39,780 bases of DNA, taken from a virus. Under the pieces are notes generated by a model. It had not been told where the DNA came from, searched no databases, and worked only from the letters and a program-made list of their open reading frames with translations. Below, in pieces: positions 2,620-39,780 of the stretch. Location: positions 1-39,780 of IMG/VR virus record IMGVR_UViG_3300022751_000028. One strand, written 5' to 3'. How positions within the stretch are numbered: position 1 is the stretch's first letter; every line of letters begins with the position of its first letter. Made by a program: the position numbers and the translations under genes.

Positions 2620-4118
2620 TGGCAAAATTAGCCGTTCAGCCTAAATACGATGAGCTGGTTAAGTTACTTTCCGACCGTAAATGGAGACTTAACAACCTTT
2701 ACTACATCCAGGACAAGGAAGGATGTAAGGTTAAGTTCAAGCTTAACTCTGCCCAAGAGAAGTTCTATAGCCGCATCTGGTATATCAACTGCATACTCAA
2801 AGCTCGACAGCTTGGGCTTTCCACATTCATTCTGATCTACATCCTTGATGCTGTATTATTCAACCCTAACAAAGCGGCTGGTATTATTGCGCAAGGCCTT
2901 AGCGAGGCGGGCGACCTATTCAAGAACAAGGTCAAGTTCGCATACGATAATCTACCTGATGAGATTAAAGCCATGGTTCCTGCGGTGCAGGATAGCGCGT
3001 CATCTCTAACATTCAAGAACGGCTCCTCGATTAAGGTTGGTACGTCTTTGCGTGGCGGTACATTCCAATACCTCCACGTCTCCGAATACGGTAAGATCGC
3101 CGCCAAATACCCCGAAAAAGCGCGCGAGATCAAGACGGGTGCGCTTAACACGGTTGCAGTCGGACAGCAGATATTCATCGAATCCACGGCTGAAGGGCAG
3201 GAAGGCGAGTTCTATGAGCTATGCCAGCGCGCCCAACAGTTACAGGAGATGGGAACAGAGCTAACCCCGTTAGACCCACGCTTCCATTTCTTCCCGTGGT
3301 ATGAGGATAAGAGCTACACCCTTGACTACAACGTACCTATTGGACCCGACCTTAACCTATATTTCCAAAAGATAGAGGCTGAGGCGAAGATTACCCTGAC
3401 TGATGGGCAGAAGGCTTGGTACTCCAAGAAAAAGCTATCTATGGGTGAGGATATGCTACGGGAATTCCCCAGCACACCAGAGGAAAGCTTCCAGACTTCT
3501 ATTGAGGGTACTTATTTCAACAAGGAGATGGCCTTTCTTCGCAAGGAGGATCGCATTTGTTTTGTACCGCATAACCCTAAGAAGCCCGTCTATACGTTCT
3601 GGGATCTTGGGTTCAACGATGACACAACGATTACCTTTGTGCAGGAGAATGGCGAAGGGTTTGACATCATTGATTATTATGAGAATAACCTAGAGGGATT
3701 GCCTCATTATGCGAACTACCTAAAGTCATTGCCTTACACTTACGCAGAGCATGACTGGCCTCATGACGGTGTAAACACTGACTGGAGTACAGGGGAAAGA
3801 CGTGATGTTGCTGCTGCTAAGCTGGGATTAAAGCCTATTAGATTGATTGAGCGATCCAAAGATTTGCGTGATGACCACGAGGCCGTGCGTAACATGTTGC
3901 CACAATGCAGATTTGATGCTATAAAGTGTGATAAGCTTATTAAACATCTCGGCAGTTACAGGAAAGAATGGAATGATCGTCTCGGCGTATGGAAAGATGC
4001 TCCTCGACATGATGAGCACTCACACGGTGTATCCAGCTTCCGAACATTCGCCACGGGATATAGAAAACGCCCTGCAACTGTTAAAGAACGTTATCAGCCG
4101 GATGACTGGAGTAGTTAA
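2619..4118 (+). CDS. terL: Terminase large subunit (packaging ATPase and nuclease)
   Basis: This 499-aa motor drives DNA into the prohead and cuts it. The N-terminal ATPase shows a terminase-type Walker A (KARQLGLST, 61-69), a Walker B-like YLHVSE (151-156) ending in the catalytic Glu, and a coupling motif FIESTAEG (186-193). The C-terminal RNase H-like nuclease shows FWDLGFNDDT (Asp329), AEHDWPHDG (Asp379) and DEHSHGVSSFR (Asp465), matching three acidic metal ligands. Length is normal for the family. It starts on a TAATG overlap and ends on a TAATG overlap with the portal gene, so packaging motor and portal are translationally coupled. Confidence 0.95.
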   Translation: MAKLAVQPKYDELVKLLSDRKWRLNNLYYIQDKEGCKVKFKLNSAQEKFYSRIWYINCILKARQLGLSTFILIYILDAVLFNPNKAAGIIAQGLSEAGDLFKNKVKFAYDNLPDEIKAMVPAVQDSASSLTFKNGSSIKVGTSLRGGTFQYLHVSEYGKIAAKYPEKAREIKTGALNTVAVGQQIFIESTAEGQEGEFYELCQRAQQLQEMGTELTPLDPRFHFFPWYEDKSYTLDYNVPIGPDLNLYFQKIEAEAKITLTDGQKAWYSKKKLSMGEDMLREFPSTPEESFQTSIEGTYFNKEMAFLRKEDRICFVPHNPKKPVYTFWDLGFNDDTTITFVQENGEGFDIIDYYENNLEGLPHYANYLKSLPYTYAEHDWPHDGVNTDWSTGERRDVAAAKLGLKPIRLIERSKDLRDDHEAVRNMLPQCRFDAIKCDKLIKHLGSYRKEWNDRLGVWKDAPRHDEHSHGVSSFRTFATGYRKRPATVKERYQPDDWSS

Positions 4119-6205
4119 TGAAATCTGACGCTGATATTGCCAAACAATTTAGAAAACATAAATCCGTAACTGATCGCGGATTGTCTGCACAATGGGAAAA
4201 CACCGAGAAGGTTGACCGTTATTACGAAGCTAACTTCTTCGACACAACCAAGGCAGGTCGCCGCCCTGTACAGATCGATAAGGTAAGTCCTTACATTAAT
4301 GCCGTTAATGGTTTTATGATTCAAGTACGTCCTAATGTAGCCTATGCTGCCCGTATCCAGGATGAAGCTAAGCAGGAATTCTATTCAAAGAATGCCAATG
4401 CTATTGCCAAATATCTGCGTAAGAACGCCAAAGCTTCACAGATCGAGACTCAGGCTAACAAAAAGACCCTGATGTATGGTTACTCTGCGACAGAGACAGC
4501 CACCACTTATAATGAGGGTTATGCTACGACTGACGCTAATGGCGAAGTTATTATGGGCGATGTCACCACTGATTGTGGCTGGGATCCGATGGCGCGCCAG
4601 ACCAACCTTCTTGACAGACGCTGGGATTATTACCGTAAGTCTTATTCATTAGAGGACGCTAAGAAGCTCTTCGGTGTTTCAGATGAGGATGACTTCCAGT
4701 CTGCGCCTAAAACACCTGACACTGGCTATGAATACGATCCTGACATTTATCCTTATGACCGTTCAAAGACGGACGAGGGTACGACATATGATTGGGACAG
4801 CAAGACAGACAAGACTGTTTGGGTATATTTCTATTCTTGGACACAGATCGAAGATTTTTACCGCGCCGAGAACCCTTTATTCAAATTAACCAATCCACTG
4901 GCATTAGAAGAAGCTATTCGTTTCCTAGAGGAAATCCGTGTCGAAGCTGAAGATGATGAGGAAATGGCTGAGTTTGATCCGGGTGCTGAGCGTCTGGTGT
5001 TTACCTCGAAGTATAAAGAGCGCTTTGAAGAGGCTTTTGAAGACCTGATTAAAATTTATAAGTTTCAGAAGAAAGTCTATTACAAGGCTGTATTGTCTGG
5101 TGATAAAGTATTCACCTCTTACCGTGCTGCCTGCCAGAAAGCTTACACTGTCCAGTTCATTACTGGTACTTGGTGGGCTAAGTCGCGTATCTGGATTGGT
5201 ATGATCAATCCTATGATGGAGCCTACGCTGTTCTTTAACAAGGCGCTTGAGTCGTTGATGTATACTATTGACGCTAACTCCAAGGGTGGTTTGTTATATG
5301 AGGATGACGCGACAGACGATCCACAACGTTTAGAAGCCAACTATAACAAGACCGACAGTTCCATTAAGCTCCGCCCGGGTGGTTTAGGGAAGGTTCGTGA
5401 GAAGCGTTCTCCGTTCCAGCCTACCGGATATGATCAGATTATCAGCCTTTCGAATCAGGCTATCTCCGATACGATGGGCTTTGACCTTGCTGCTATCCTT
5501 TCAGCCCAAGACCAACAGTCAGGAGTATTGCACCGTCAGCTTGTTAAACAGGTTAAGTCTACCTTAGCTGCTTACTTCGATGCGTTTGAAGCCTATCGTG
5601 AGGAGCATGCGCGTCTAATGTTAGACCTGATGCGTGTCTACTGTGAAAACAATGAAGGTGCTGTGGTTCGTATTCTTGGCCCTGAGAATGCTGCTGAATT
5701 TATTACTATCTCTAAAGAAGCCTTGTTCGTAGAATATGACATTGACATCGTAGAGACACCAGAGACGGATGAAGTCAAAACAGAGCAAGCACAGATCCTT
5801 ATTTCTATGGGTGATAAACTGGCTGCTATTGGTGATACGGCTGGTAAGGCGTTCTATGCCGGGGCACTTAAGGTGCTTCCTCTGGATGCAGAGCAACGCC
5901 AAGAGATGCTGGAAGCCCTCAAGTCAGAAGATCCACGCATTGCACAGGCACAGCAGGTTATTCAACAGCTTCAAAGCCAAATCTCACAGCTTACAGACCA
6001 GCAGGTACGTGCGCTTAACGAAGCTAACCTCAAGCTTATTCAGGCACAGACTTCATATACACAGTCTAACATTGATAAAAATATGGCTGGCGTACAGAAA
6101 ACTGCTGCCGATACCGTTAAAGCCCTTGAAGAATCCGAGACAATCCGTATTGAGAACAAACTTGCCCCATATGCGACTATGGACAAGGTTAGCGTGAGTA
6201 TTTAA
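4118..6205 (+). CDS. Portal protein, P22-like
   Basis: The 695-aa product is close to the length of the P22 portal (about 725 aa). It shows the family pattern around residues 140-185: DCGWDPMARQ, then LLDRRWDYYRKSYSLEDAKK and LFG. The stem and clip region is in the middle (FITGTWWAKSRIWIGMINPM), and residues about 600-690 are a long Gln/Ala-rich coiled coil that may form the barrel or contact ejection proteins. Dodecameric portals form the DNA gate at one capsid vertex and bind the terminase. Starts by TAATG overlap with terL. The annotation rests on motif and context. Confidence 0.9.
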   Translation: MKSDADIAKQFRKHKSVTDRGLSAQWENTEKVDRYYEANFFDTTKAGRRPVQIDKVSPYINAVNGFMIQVRPNVAYAARIQDEAKQEFYSKNANAIAKYLRKNAKASQIETQANKKTLMYGYSATETATTYNEGYATTDANGEVIMGDVTTDCGWDPMARQTNLLDRRWDYYRKSYSLEDAKKLFGVSDEDDFQSAPKTPDTGYEYDPDIYPYDRSKTDEGTTYDWDSKTDKTVWVYFYSWTQIEDFYRAENPLFKLTNPLALEEAIRFLEEIRVEAEDDEEMAEFDPGAERLVFTSKYKERFEEAFEDLIKIYKFQKKVYYKAVLSGDKVFTSYRAACQKAYTVQFITGTWWAKSRIWIGMINPMMEPTLFFNKALESLMYTIDANSKGGLLYEDDATDDPQRLEANYNKTDSSIKLRPGGLGKVREKRSPFQPTGYDQIISLSNQAISDTMGFDLAAILSAQDQQSGVLHRQLVKQVKSTLAAYFDAFEAYREEHARLMLDLMRVYCENNEGAVVRILGPENAAEFITISKEALFVEYDIDIVETPETDEVKTEQAQILISMGDKLAAIGDTAGKAFYAGALKVLPLDAEQRQEMLEALKSEDPRIAQAQQVIQQLQSQISQLTDQQVRALNEANLKLIQAQTSYTQSNIDKNMAGVQKTAADTVKALEESETIRIENKLAPYATMDKVSVSI

Positions 6206-36730: not shown

Positions 36731-36928
36731 ATGTTTATTCAAGAAACTGAATTTTACACGCCAGACCAAAATACTGAATTATTATCAAACAAGAATGGTT
36801 TGGTTTATTACTACCACAACTTGTCAAAAGTTGTGACGGTGTGCGATGAAGAAGAAAACGCAATTATTACTCAAAAAGGTTTTTGCTCTAAAAAACAATT
36901 CGCTGTTGACTGGGTAGAGGCGCAATAA
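36731..36928 (+). CDS. Hypothetical protein, 65 aa
   Basis: Starts after ACGGAGAGATAAA. The product has TPDQNTELLSNKNGLVYYYH and NLSKVVTVCDEEENAIITQK, then a helix (FCSKKQFAVDWVEAQ). The layout is two strands plus a helix. Its stop overlaps the next start by one base (TAATG). No family was recognised. Confidence 0.7.
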   Translation: MFIQETEFYTPDQNTELLSNKNGLVYYYHNLSKVVTVCDEEENAIITQKGFCSKKQFAVDWVEAQ

Positions 36929-37206
36929 TGAGCATAGAACGCTGCACACAATGCGAAAAATCAGTTGATATGGATTGGAATGCCGGGGAGTATCTCAATG
37001 ATAAGTTTTATTGTGAGGGATGTATTGATGTAAGGCAGTGTCCTAATTGCAATATTATAGATAATCTTTCTGTATACAAATACGATCATGGTGGAAAACA
37101 CGTAGAATGTAATAATTGTTTCTATCTTGGACCTTGTGCTTCAACGGTAAAAGACGCAATTAAAGAACATAATGCCCTAGTTAAAGCGAAATCGGTTAAA
37201 ATATGA
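36928..37206 (+). CDS. Double zinc-finger protein with Lar-like C terminus, 92 aa
   Basis: An N-terminal finger (RCTQCEKSVD ... FYCEGCIDV) is followed by a second module (QCPNCNIIDN ... HVECNNCFYLGPCASTVKDA then IKEHNALV). The second matches the Lar/zinc-ribbon pattern CPxC...VxCxxCxxxGPxxxTxxxAIxxWN, found in restriction-alleviation protein Lar and related phage proteins. An anti-restriction role is possible but not shown. It ends by ATGA overlap with a regulator gene. Confidence 0.75.
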   Translation: MSIERCTQCEKSVDMDWNAGEYLNDKFYCEGCIDVRQCPNCNIIDNLSVYKYDHGGKHVECNNCFYLGPCASTVKDAIKEHNALVKAKSVKI

Positions 37207-37976: not shown

Positions 37977-38228
37977 ATGACCAGTGAAGATATATTGAAG
38001 TTAGCCCAAGAATCTGATGAATTTGAGAAATTATTGCTTGAGCATAATAAAGTTTATTTTCAGGTGGGTTTCAATCATAGAGAAGATTATGAACCGGGAG
38101 AAGTAGCTTGGGATTTAATATGCGATATTAATGACAGTATTAAATCGCTTGGTATTCGTTTGGATGATACAGATTCCGATAATGATACATTATGGGGTTA
38201 TATTGTCAATATTGAGGATGATAAGTAA
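37977..38228 (+). CDS. Acidic hypothetical protein, 83 aa
   Basis: The product has SEDILKLAQESDEFEKLLLE then HREDYEPGEVAWDLICDIND and ends in an acidic tail (RLDDTDSDNDTLWGYIVNIE then DDK). The low pI suggests a DNA mimic or a protein-binding role, which is speculation. It overlaps the homing endonuclease gene by TAATG. Confidence 0.7.
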   Translation: MTSEDILKLAQESDEFEKLLLEHNKVYFQVGFNHREDYEPGEVAWDLICDINDSIKSLGIRLDDTDSDNDTLWGYIVNIEDDK

Positions 38229-38716
38229 TGAAACAAATAGTATTAGAAAATGCTATAGGAATCTTTGCCACTATTGATGATGATGATTATGAACTTGTAA
38301 ATAAGTTTAAGTGGATACTTAGAATTAAAGGTAAAAAATCATATGCGGTTACCGGAGGAAAGTCTGTTAGGCTCCACAGATTATTGTTAAATAACCCTGA
38401 TAAATCTTTACTTGTAGACCATATAAATGGCAATGGCTTAGATAATCGCCGTGAAAACCTAAGAGTTTGTAATAATGCACAAAACCTTAGGAACAGAGGA
38501 AAAAACAATAACAATAAAGGTCGTTATAAAGGTGTAAGTCTTAGAACTGGTAAAAATACTTATATTGCTCGAATAATGACCGATGAAGGAAAATACAAAT
38601 ATTTAGGTGATTTCTTAACTGACCATGATGCAGCACTGGCTTACAATAAAGCAGCAATTCAATATCATGGAGAATTTGCTTATTTAAATATTATAGTTGA
38701 TCCAGCAGGAGTATAA
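38228..38716 (+). CDS. HNH-AP2 homing endonuclease
   Basis: The 162-aa product has an N-terminal HNH_3 domain (His50-Arg51, LVDHINGNG at 62-70, NRRENLRVCNNAQNLRN at 73-89) and a C-terminal AP2 DNA-binding domain (about 97-153: KGRYKGVSLRTGKNTYIARI, KYLGDFLTDHDAALAYNKAA). This is the usual architecture of phage mobile HNH endonucleases. It stands free, not in an interrupted gene. The structured noncoding region starts at its very end: helix bases 38705-38711 lie within its last codons. That association may show insertion next to an RNA gene. Confidence 0.9.
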   Translation: MKQIVLENAIGIFATIDDDDYELVNKFKWILRIKGKKSYAVTGGKSVRLHRLLLNNPDKSLLVDHINGNGLDNRRENLRVCNNAQNLRNRGKNNNNKGRYKGVSLRTGKNTYIARIMTDEGKYKYLGDFLTDHDAALAYNKAAIQYHGEFAYLNIIVDPAGV

Positions 38717-39123
38717 CGGTATACTGTGAGCGCAACTGAGATCAGGGATTATCTCCGGTTTCAAAGGCCTGAGCATGTCGGTAACTGCTCGATCTCTCCT
38801 GGAGATAACTCTCTGACTGCTTTGATAATCTTGACCATTGCAGTGATCGTACCGAAAGGTATCCTAGAGTTATCCCTTGGATAGATAAAACACCCTGACA
38901 GGTGTCCTTGCGGGTTCAACTCCCGTCTCCTGTGCCTAATTCTTGTCAGAGATGAACAGCAGGGATGGATTTGGTTCAGGCTATCCAATTATTTCTATTG
39001 CAAGACACTAAATACATTGGTAATATACGAATAGGATAGATAGTTGGAAGTGACGACTTCACGCTGTACAATGGCAACCTGACGGTCAGGCCCATGGATG
39101 TACTTAGTCTATCCCACCTTTTA
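38705..39123 (+). ncRNA. Candidate large structured noncoding RNA (about 420 nt)
   Basis: No coding frame is supported from 38717 to 39181. Helices seen by eye: GCAGGAG (38705-38711)/CTCCTGT (38927-38933) next to a tRNA-like T arm GCGGG-TTCAACT-CCCGT (38910-38926); GATAACTCT (38804-38812)/AGAGTTATC (38866-38874) enclosing ACTGC/GCAGT (38816-20/38840-44) and GTACC-GAAA-GGTAT (38849-38862); hairpin ACACC-CTGACA-GGTGT (38890-38905) with its loop complementary to TGTCAG (38944-38949); TTGGATAG (38877-38884)/CTATCCAA (38981-38988); GGATAGA (39034-39040)/TCTATCC (39108-39114) enclosing GAAGT-GACG-ACTTC (39047-39060) and CCTGA-CGG-TCAGG (39078-39090). Not all can coexist. The ends are estimates. Confidence 0.6.
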
Positions 39124-39129
39124 TGTGAT

Positions 39130-39160
39130 CTATATCGTTCGGATCCCTCTGGCGATATAG
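39130..39160 (+). promoter_or_regulatory. Perfect 8-bp hairpin before the last small genes
   Basis: CTATATCG (39130-39137) pairs with CGATATAG (39153-39160) around a 15-nt loop. It is followed by TTCTGATAAAAGGGAGAT, the ribosome binding site of the gene at 39182. It may end the upstream structured RNA, act as an RNase site, or regulate the downstream genes. No clear T run follows it. Confidence 0.6.
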
Positions 39161-39181
39161 TTCTGATAAAAGGGAGATATC

Positions 39182-39301
39182 ATGGAAGAGTTACCCGTTT
39201 GCTTCTACTCAGATGAAGTTCTTTACATGCTCTACCCTGAAATAGACGCTTACCGTATCTTGTCCCCCAGCAACGACAACCATAGAATGAGGATATTATG
39301 A
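39182..39301 (+). CDS. Small hypothetical protein, 39 aa
   Basis: Starts after AAAGGGAGATATC, a strong binding site. The product MEELPVCFYSDEVLYMLYPE then IDAYRILSPSNDNHRMRIL has no recognised family. It ends by ATGA overlap with a membrane-protein gene. Confidence 0.6.
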   Translation: MEELPVCFYSDEVLYMLYPEIDAYRILSPSNDNHRMRIL

Positions 39302-39554: not shown

Positions 39555-39757
39555 TCCGCCTAAAGATGCCGAATGGACGTTATTTCAATGCTGGAGGGTT
39601 TATTGAACCTTCATTGAAGGACATATACCAGAAAAAGCTTATGGATCACTACAGCAAAAACGCAGGTATTCAGCCTATCGAAGAATACAGGAAAGATATT
39701 AGAGCGATCAAAGAAGAATATAGCTTATTGATGTCTCAAGAGAATAGTGTACAATAA
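39551..39757 (+). CDS. Small helical hypothetical protein, 68 aa (complete copy)
   Basis: Starts by ATGA overlap. The product has MIRLKMPNGRYFNAGGFIEP and a long charged helix (PIEEYRKDIRAIKEEYSLLM). Its last 39 codons recur at positions 1-120 with one amino-acid change. The next gene across the circular join is the one at 151. No family was recognised. Confidence 0.75.
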   Translation: MIRLKMPNGRYFNAGGFIEPSLKDIYQKKLMDHYSKNAGIQPIEEYRKDIRAIKEEYSLLMSQENSVQ

Positions 39758-39780
39758 AGCCGAGTTTTAAACCAATTGGA
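39638..39780. repeat. Terminal direct repeat (right copy)
   Basis: Matches bases 1-143 with substitutions at 39649, 39652 and 39654. See the left copy for the interpretation as a circular closure. Confidence 0.9.

Follow-up and report, generated by a model that had tools for sequence, protein, structure and literature searches.

The window analysed here is a viral stretch of 39,780 nt (IMG/VR record IMGVR_UViG_3300022751_000028). It carries a terminal direct repeat of 143 nt with 97.9% identity (positions 1-143 and 39638-39780), because of which the genome closes on itself, and the contig is probably complete, with a circularly closing genome of about 39.6 kb. Judged by coding score, its longest non-coding stretch is a gap located where the early genes give way to the terminase/structural operon. 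On the + strand, this gap is bounded by the stop codon (38714-38716) of an HNH/AP2 homing endonuclease gene and by the ATG of a short open reading frame at 39182; it spans positions 38717-39181, that is, the 465 nt free of genes to which the earlier note had drawn attention. A coding-like hexamer score is absent in all six frames of the gap, and the stop-to-stop fragments belong to no PHROGs or Pfam family. These results, together with those of tblastn, rule out a protein-coding or decayed gene; the conserved protein frame that had been named as an argument against an RNA was looked for by the same four approaches and none was found. Elsewhere in the window (36928-37206), there is a small cysteine-rich, probably zinc-binding protein with weak similarity to DUF2387, the C-terminal half of which resembles, by eye only, Lar-type restriction alleviation proteins.

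The endonuclease gene and the predicted parts of the element, all on the + strand, are the following:

38228-38716, + strand: HNH homing endonuclease with an AP2 DNA-binding domain (phrog_99, 1.4e-37; Pfam HNH_3 above and AP2 below the cut-off)
38705-38711, + strand: GCAGGAG, 5' strand of the proposed acceptor-like helix (7 of 7 pairs with 38927-38933, one of them G-U, in the minimum free energy (MFE) structure of 38705-38934)
38712-38725, + strand: short D-arm-like stretch TATAACGGTATACT, also a TATACT -10-like hexamer (from sequence; promoter-like 9/12; weak)
38737-38763, + strand: hairpin of 7 bp plus 4 bp (predicted fold)
38771-38791, + strand: hairpin GAGCA..TGCTC (predicted fold)
38800-38878, + strand: predicted three-way junction with a GAAA-capped hairpin at 38849-38862 (z -3.78; pairing probability 0.96-0.98 in all contexts)
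38890-38905, + strand: hairpin ACACC/GGTGT with the 6-nt loop CTGACA, located where an anticodon arm or variable arm would be (predicted fold)
38910-38926, + strand: canonical tRNA T-arm GCGGG-TTCAACT-CCCGT (rare in shuffles; matches phage tRNA T-arms)
38927-38936, + strand: CTCCTGT, 3' acceptor-like strand, followed by G and CC (from sequence; CCA incomplete, CCT)
38962-39115, + strand: second predicted domain closed by GGGATGGATT/AGTCTATCCC, with three inner arms (z -2.61; unstable in longer contexts)
39117-39173, + strand: long hairpin, the 3' strand of which extends into the ribosome-binding site (AAGGGAG) of gene 39182 (z -5.69; inverted repeat of 21 nt, 86%)

The proposed acceptor helix has its 5' strand (38705-38711) within the last codons of the endonuclease gene, and the ACACC/GGTGT hairpin ends 4 nt 5' of the T-arm. 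The hairpin at 39117-39173 is not followed by a T run.

Compared with shuffled sequences, the region is rich in perfect Watson-Crick helices, with 6 helices of at least 7 bp within 150 nt (2.2 +/- 1.2 in shuffles) and 63 of at least 5 bp within 150 nt (36.5 in shuffles). The eight or more helices of 5-9 bp originally counted by hand would mean little by themselves given the latter expectation, but the total does exceed the shuffles. Folding is similarly better than in composition-matched shuffles, as is expected of a structured RNA in general, with z of -3.5 for 38705-39173 (about -3.4 for both halves), -3.48 for 38705-38934, -3.78 for 38800-38878, -2.61 for 38960-39117 and -5.69 for the last hairpin (39115-39175). 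In a 230-nt tiling of the window, the mean z was -0.08 (sd 1.1) and no tile fell below about -3.0. The exact interval proposed initially, 38705-39123, yields a z of only -1.67 because it leaves out the final hairpin, which is the strongest; on the reverse strand, the same interval folds more weakly (z -1.08). Among the individual elements described in the earlier note, the three-way junction (stem 38804-38812/38866-38874) and the GAAA hairpin (38849-38862) are both recovered with pairing probabilities of 0.96-0.98 in every context tried, whereas the complementarity between a hairpin loop and a downstream tract amounts to 7 bp (38780-38786/39189-39195) and is within chance, about 8 such pairs being expected by our own estimate. 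Thus, 38717-39181 is a non-coding stretch with better-than-chance predicted structure; the suggestion of a structured phage RNA holds statistically for a structured non-coding element but not for its proposed placement in the GOLLD or ROOL class.

At the gathering thresholds, Rfam identifies only a tRNA-Cys in the whole window, outside the region of interest, and even at E 10 there is nothing meaningful across 38600-39250. This search, one of the checks recommended at the outset, brought no family near threshold. GOLLD and ROOL, which are about twice as large as the element, lack a match up to E 10, and both are excluded at the Rfam sensitivity used (gathering thresholds and E 10). The group II intron models of Rfam have no match in the region either. 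A tmRNA or permuted tmRNA is ruled out given that there is neither an Rfam match nor an ARAGORN tmRNA call; the G3-U70 alanine identity pair of tmRNA is not present, the proposed acceptor having A3-U70 instead. A group I intron containing the homing endonuclease is brought to mind by the adjacent endonuclease gene and by the segment 38764-38790, which by eye looks like the P1-P2 segment of T4 td. The Rfam group I model, however, has no match at E 10 in 38600-39250 (RF00028; the T4 td control scores 40.3 bits, E 1.6e-8), a home-made profile of 126 R-to-S core segments of phage IA introns gives no hit in this region although it detects T4 td, nrdB and nrdD (69-79 bits), the fetched introns show no similarity to the region by nhmmer, and a convincing P7/G-binding pair is absent. 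The intron is accordingly rejected at this sensitivity (Rfam E 10, IA profile, T4 controls), and its probability is close to negligible. The Rfam group I model misses T4 td and nrdB at its gathering score (for td, 40.3 versus 50 bits), and therefore a plain Rfam negative does not exclude a phage IA intron.

The only family-level signature of the region is the T-arm at 38910-38926, which the first reading of the sequence had missed. It has the TTCRANY consensus and the 5-bp stem of tRNAs (RF00005). T-arms with at least 4 G-C pairs appear in 0.03% of the shuffles of the region, a chance value that is post hoc, as it was inspection of the sequence that drew attention to the T-arm; the genuine tRNA-Cys supplies the one other T-arm of this kind in the window. 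Orphan T-arms are rare in general, with 11 found in about 3.5 Mb of strand sequence. The acceptor helix (38705-38711/38927-38933) is a less specific feature, in that a 7-bp acceptor partner arises in 14% of shuffles. When 38705-38934 is folded alone, the MFE structure combines acceptor, T-arm and inner helices, and the pairing probability of the acceptor is 0.97 in this trimmed RNA but about 0 with the 5' flank; transcripts with the 5' flank mostly keep the T-arm, the three-way junction and the last hairpin. A 7-bp acceptor stem at the normal distance is not found, the only such partner being 205 nt upstream of the T-arm and the close-distance alternative being paired at about 4 of 7 positions. 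The RF00005 covariance model does not detect the region at E 10, and the full cloverleaf is absent: the D-arm is cramped, positions 8-9 are missing, the anticodon-like loop has 6 nt, and CCT replaces CCA. Upon removal of about 150 nt, ARAGORN calls a tRNA at the default threshold, as it does for 1 of 20 shuffled left parts, none of which (0/20) reaches the best observed level of 103. Shuffling of 38856-38890 does not lower the ARAGORN level, and therefore the D-arm/anticodon-arm parts add nothing. These splicing tests provide modest support beyond the T-arm itself. We regard the stretch as an orphan candidate RNA with one strong tRNA feature.

A lone 3' tRNA segment is what one would expect at an attP, with the T-arm and acceptor strand copied from the 3' end of a host tRNA. 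No integrase, however, was detected among the proteins scanned or beside the site, and the exact 23-mer GTTCAACTCCCGTCTCCTGTGCC occurs in 0 of 84,980 species genomes, which leaves a tRNA-derived attP highly improbable.

Nucleotide homologues of the element were found neither in phages and plasmids (blastn) nor in viral contigs and species genomes (DNA-pattern scans), the search among phage contigs being another that the earlier note had called for. A pseudo-protein scan and a single-sequence covariance model run over 97 fetched loci likewise detected no homologue, and the pattern of the 18-mer GGTTCAACTCCCGTCTCC matched in four contigs, always in the T-arm of a tRNA or tRNA-like element. In the nearest relative (contig L002), the terminase is 66% identical and the neighbouring gene is present, and the element is absent. 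Such absence would be compatible with a decaying tRNA gene or another non-functional insertion brought in with the homing endonuclease, in which case the helices would be functionless leftovers. The degenerate tRNA features point in the same direction, and homing endonucleases can adjoin phage tRNA genes (one example, Kenya-K16). Nevertheless, better-than-shuffled folding is seen in several sub-domains independently, something that drifting sequence in a compact genome would not usually show, and we consider decay unlikely.

In the same relative, a clear sigma-70-like TTGCAC-17-TATAGT sequence (1550-1600) directly precedes the homologue of gene 39298 of the window; this is likely the late promoter of this phage group. 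The element could also be a structured 5' leader of the late operon, with transcription either entering this region or starting at TTGATC-17-TATACT (38697-38725), the last hairpin partly hiding the ribosome-binding site of gene 39182 and thereby controlling late-gene translation or elongation, and the T-arm being incidental or a borrowed piece of a tRNA. The location after the last early genes and ahead of the terminase/structural operon in a self-closing genome, the sigma-70-like sequence at the equivalent place in the relative and the hairpin at 39117-39173 (z -5.7) beside the ribosome-binding site are all in favor of such a leader. However, the relative does without one, promoter-like matches are about as frequent as expected by chance (17 versus 13.4), an intrinsic terminator is lacking, and the T-arm is left unexplained. 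Overall, the leader appears to be a possible but somewhat unlikely account of the whole element.

The reading that we favor, tentatively and as plausible rather than probable, is that 38705-38934 is an interrupted tRNA or tRNA-like RNA behind the homing endonuclease gene, the middle of which has been replaced by a multi-helix domain. Its observed basis consists of the T-arm, in both sequence and predicted fold, the better-than-chance folding, the lack of coding and the position overlapping the endonuclease gene. In this tRNA-like RNA, the acceptor/T-arm unit would close a multi-helix domain of about 160-180 nt that takes the place of the stretch from the D-arm to the anticodon arm. RNase P and the 3' processing enzymes recognize the acceptor/T-arm unit; formation of the helix would therefore be expected to yield a trimmed RNA of about 230 nt. 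RNase P would cut the + strand operon transcript at about 38705, the 3' tRNA-processing enzymes would cut at about 38934, and the trimmed product might accumulate as a stable phage RNA that, rather than decoding, competes for factors that bind tRNA or tmRNA (EF-Tu, SmpB, CCA-adding enzyme). The hairpin at 39117-39173 would then be a separate element, probably limiting the translation of the first late gene (39182); in the predicted fold it takes in part of AAGGGAG and may regulate the translation of this gene.

RNAs of this type are of broader relevance given that tRNA-like RNAs with long inserts escape standard tRNA and Rfam searches; here, both ARAGORN at its default settings and Rfam returned nothing for the region. 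Provided that they are indeed produced and processed, such RNAs would represent an unrecognized kind of phage RNA, one with the potential to disturb translation or trans-translation.

Comparable elements are found in several other phages. A tRNA in contig L225 has the same T-arm, a 7-bp acceptor and a long insert in the D-region, and shares TACTGTGAGCG with the element described here; it differs in that the D-loop insertion is only 48 nt, and it scores 42.3 bits against RF00005 without an ARAGORN call. On the - strand of this contig (8660-9090), there is a row of odd tRNA-like elements, none of them called by ARAGORN, including this tRNA, one without a paired acceptor and one with the acceptor GGGGGGC/GCCCTCC and a long insert. 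Microcystis phages of the Ma-LMM01 type (L229-L233) contain an element of about 199 nt with an acceptor helix, a small D-arm, a multi-helix insert and the T-arm GCGGGTTCAATTCCCGT, but this insert is not alignable with the one described here and the copies are near-identical and confined to that phage group. The 199-nt element is present in 9 of 9 Ma-LMM01-type records found, and is unannotated in all 5 whose feature tables were examined (130-328 of L229, corresponding to about 151.36-151.56 kb in MaMV-CH01; about 144.88-145.08 kb in Ma-LMM01). Contig L052, fetched via its homing endonuclease, which is related to that of the window, contains two possible, weakly supported tRNA-like elements (3709-3816 and 3926-4143) about 1.3-1.7 kb after the endonuclease gene; the first ends in ACCA and scores 13.7 bits against tmRNA (E 0.004).

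It is conceivable, although we rate it as rather improbable, that these elements represent a kind of phage RNA not described before, with a large multi-helix domain closed by an acceptor/T-arm unit, which recurs in unrelated phages (the present one, Ma-LMM01-type cyanophages, L225 and perhaps L052), and which is processed like a tRNA and acts against translation or ribosome-rescue factors in the manner of a decoy or scaffold. In the loci examined, 4 orphan T-arms have far acceptor partners, compared with a mean of about 1.8 for shuffled acceptors, which is not clear enrichment, and therefore a common class is a suggestion rather than a result.

GOLLD and ROOL are large multi-helix phage RNAs like the element described here, but they are distinct and larger; they are often located near tRNA islands, and many GOLLD members exceed 800 nt (PMC12286853). 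With respect to the genomic arrangement, the T5-like phage Kenya-K16 provides a parallel, in that the 3' end of a homing endonuclease gene overlaps the start of a tRNA-Leu, which is intact in that phage. With respect to possible function, the mycobacteriophage DS6A encodes a tmRNA that consists of the tRNA-like domain only, and a molecule similar to it inhibits tmRNA, perhaps through titration of SmpB (PMC4131195, PMC11915505). The DS6A RNA has tmRNA homology and little beyond the tRNA-like domain, whereas the element described here has a large inner domain and neither a tmRNA match nor the G3-U70 pair, and therefore is not filed as a tmRNA; what the two have in common is that both are phage RNAs, actual or candidate, with an acceptor/T-arm unit and no proper decoding arm.
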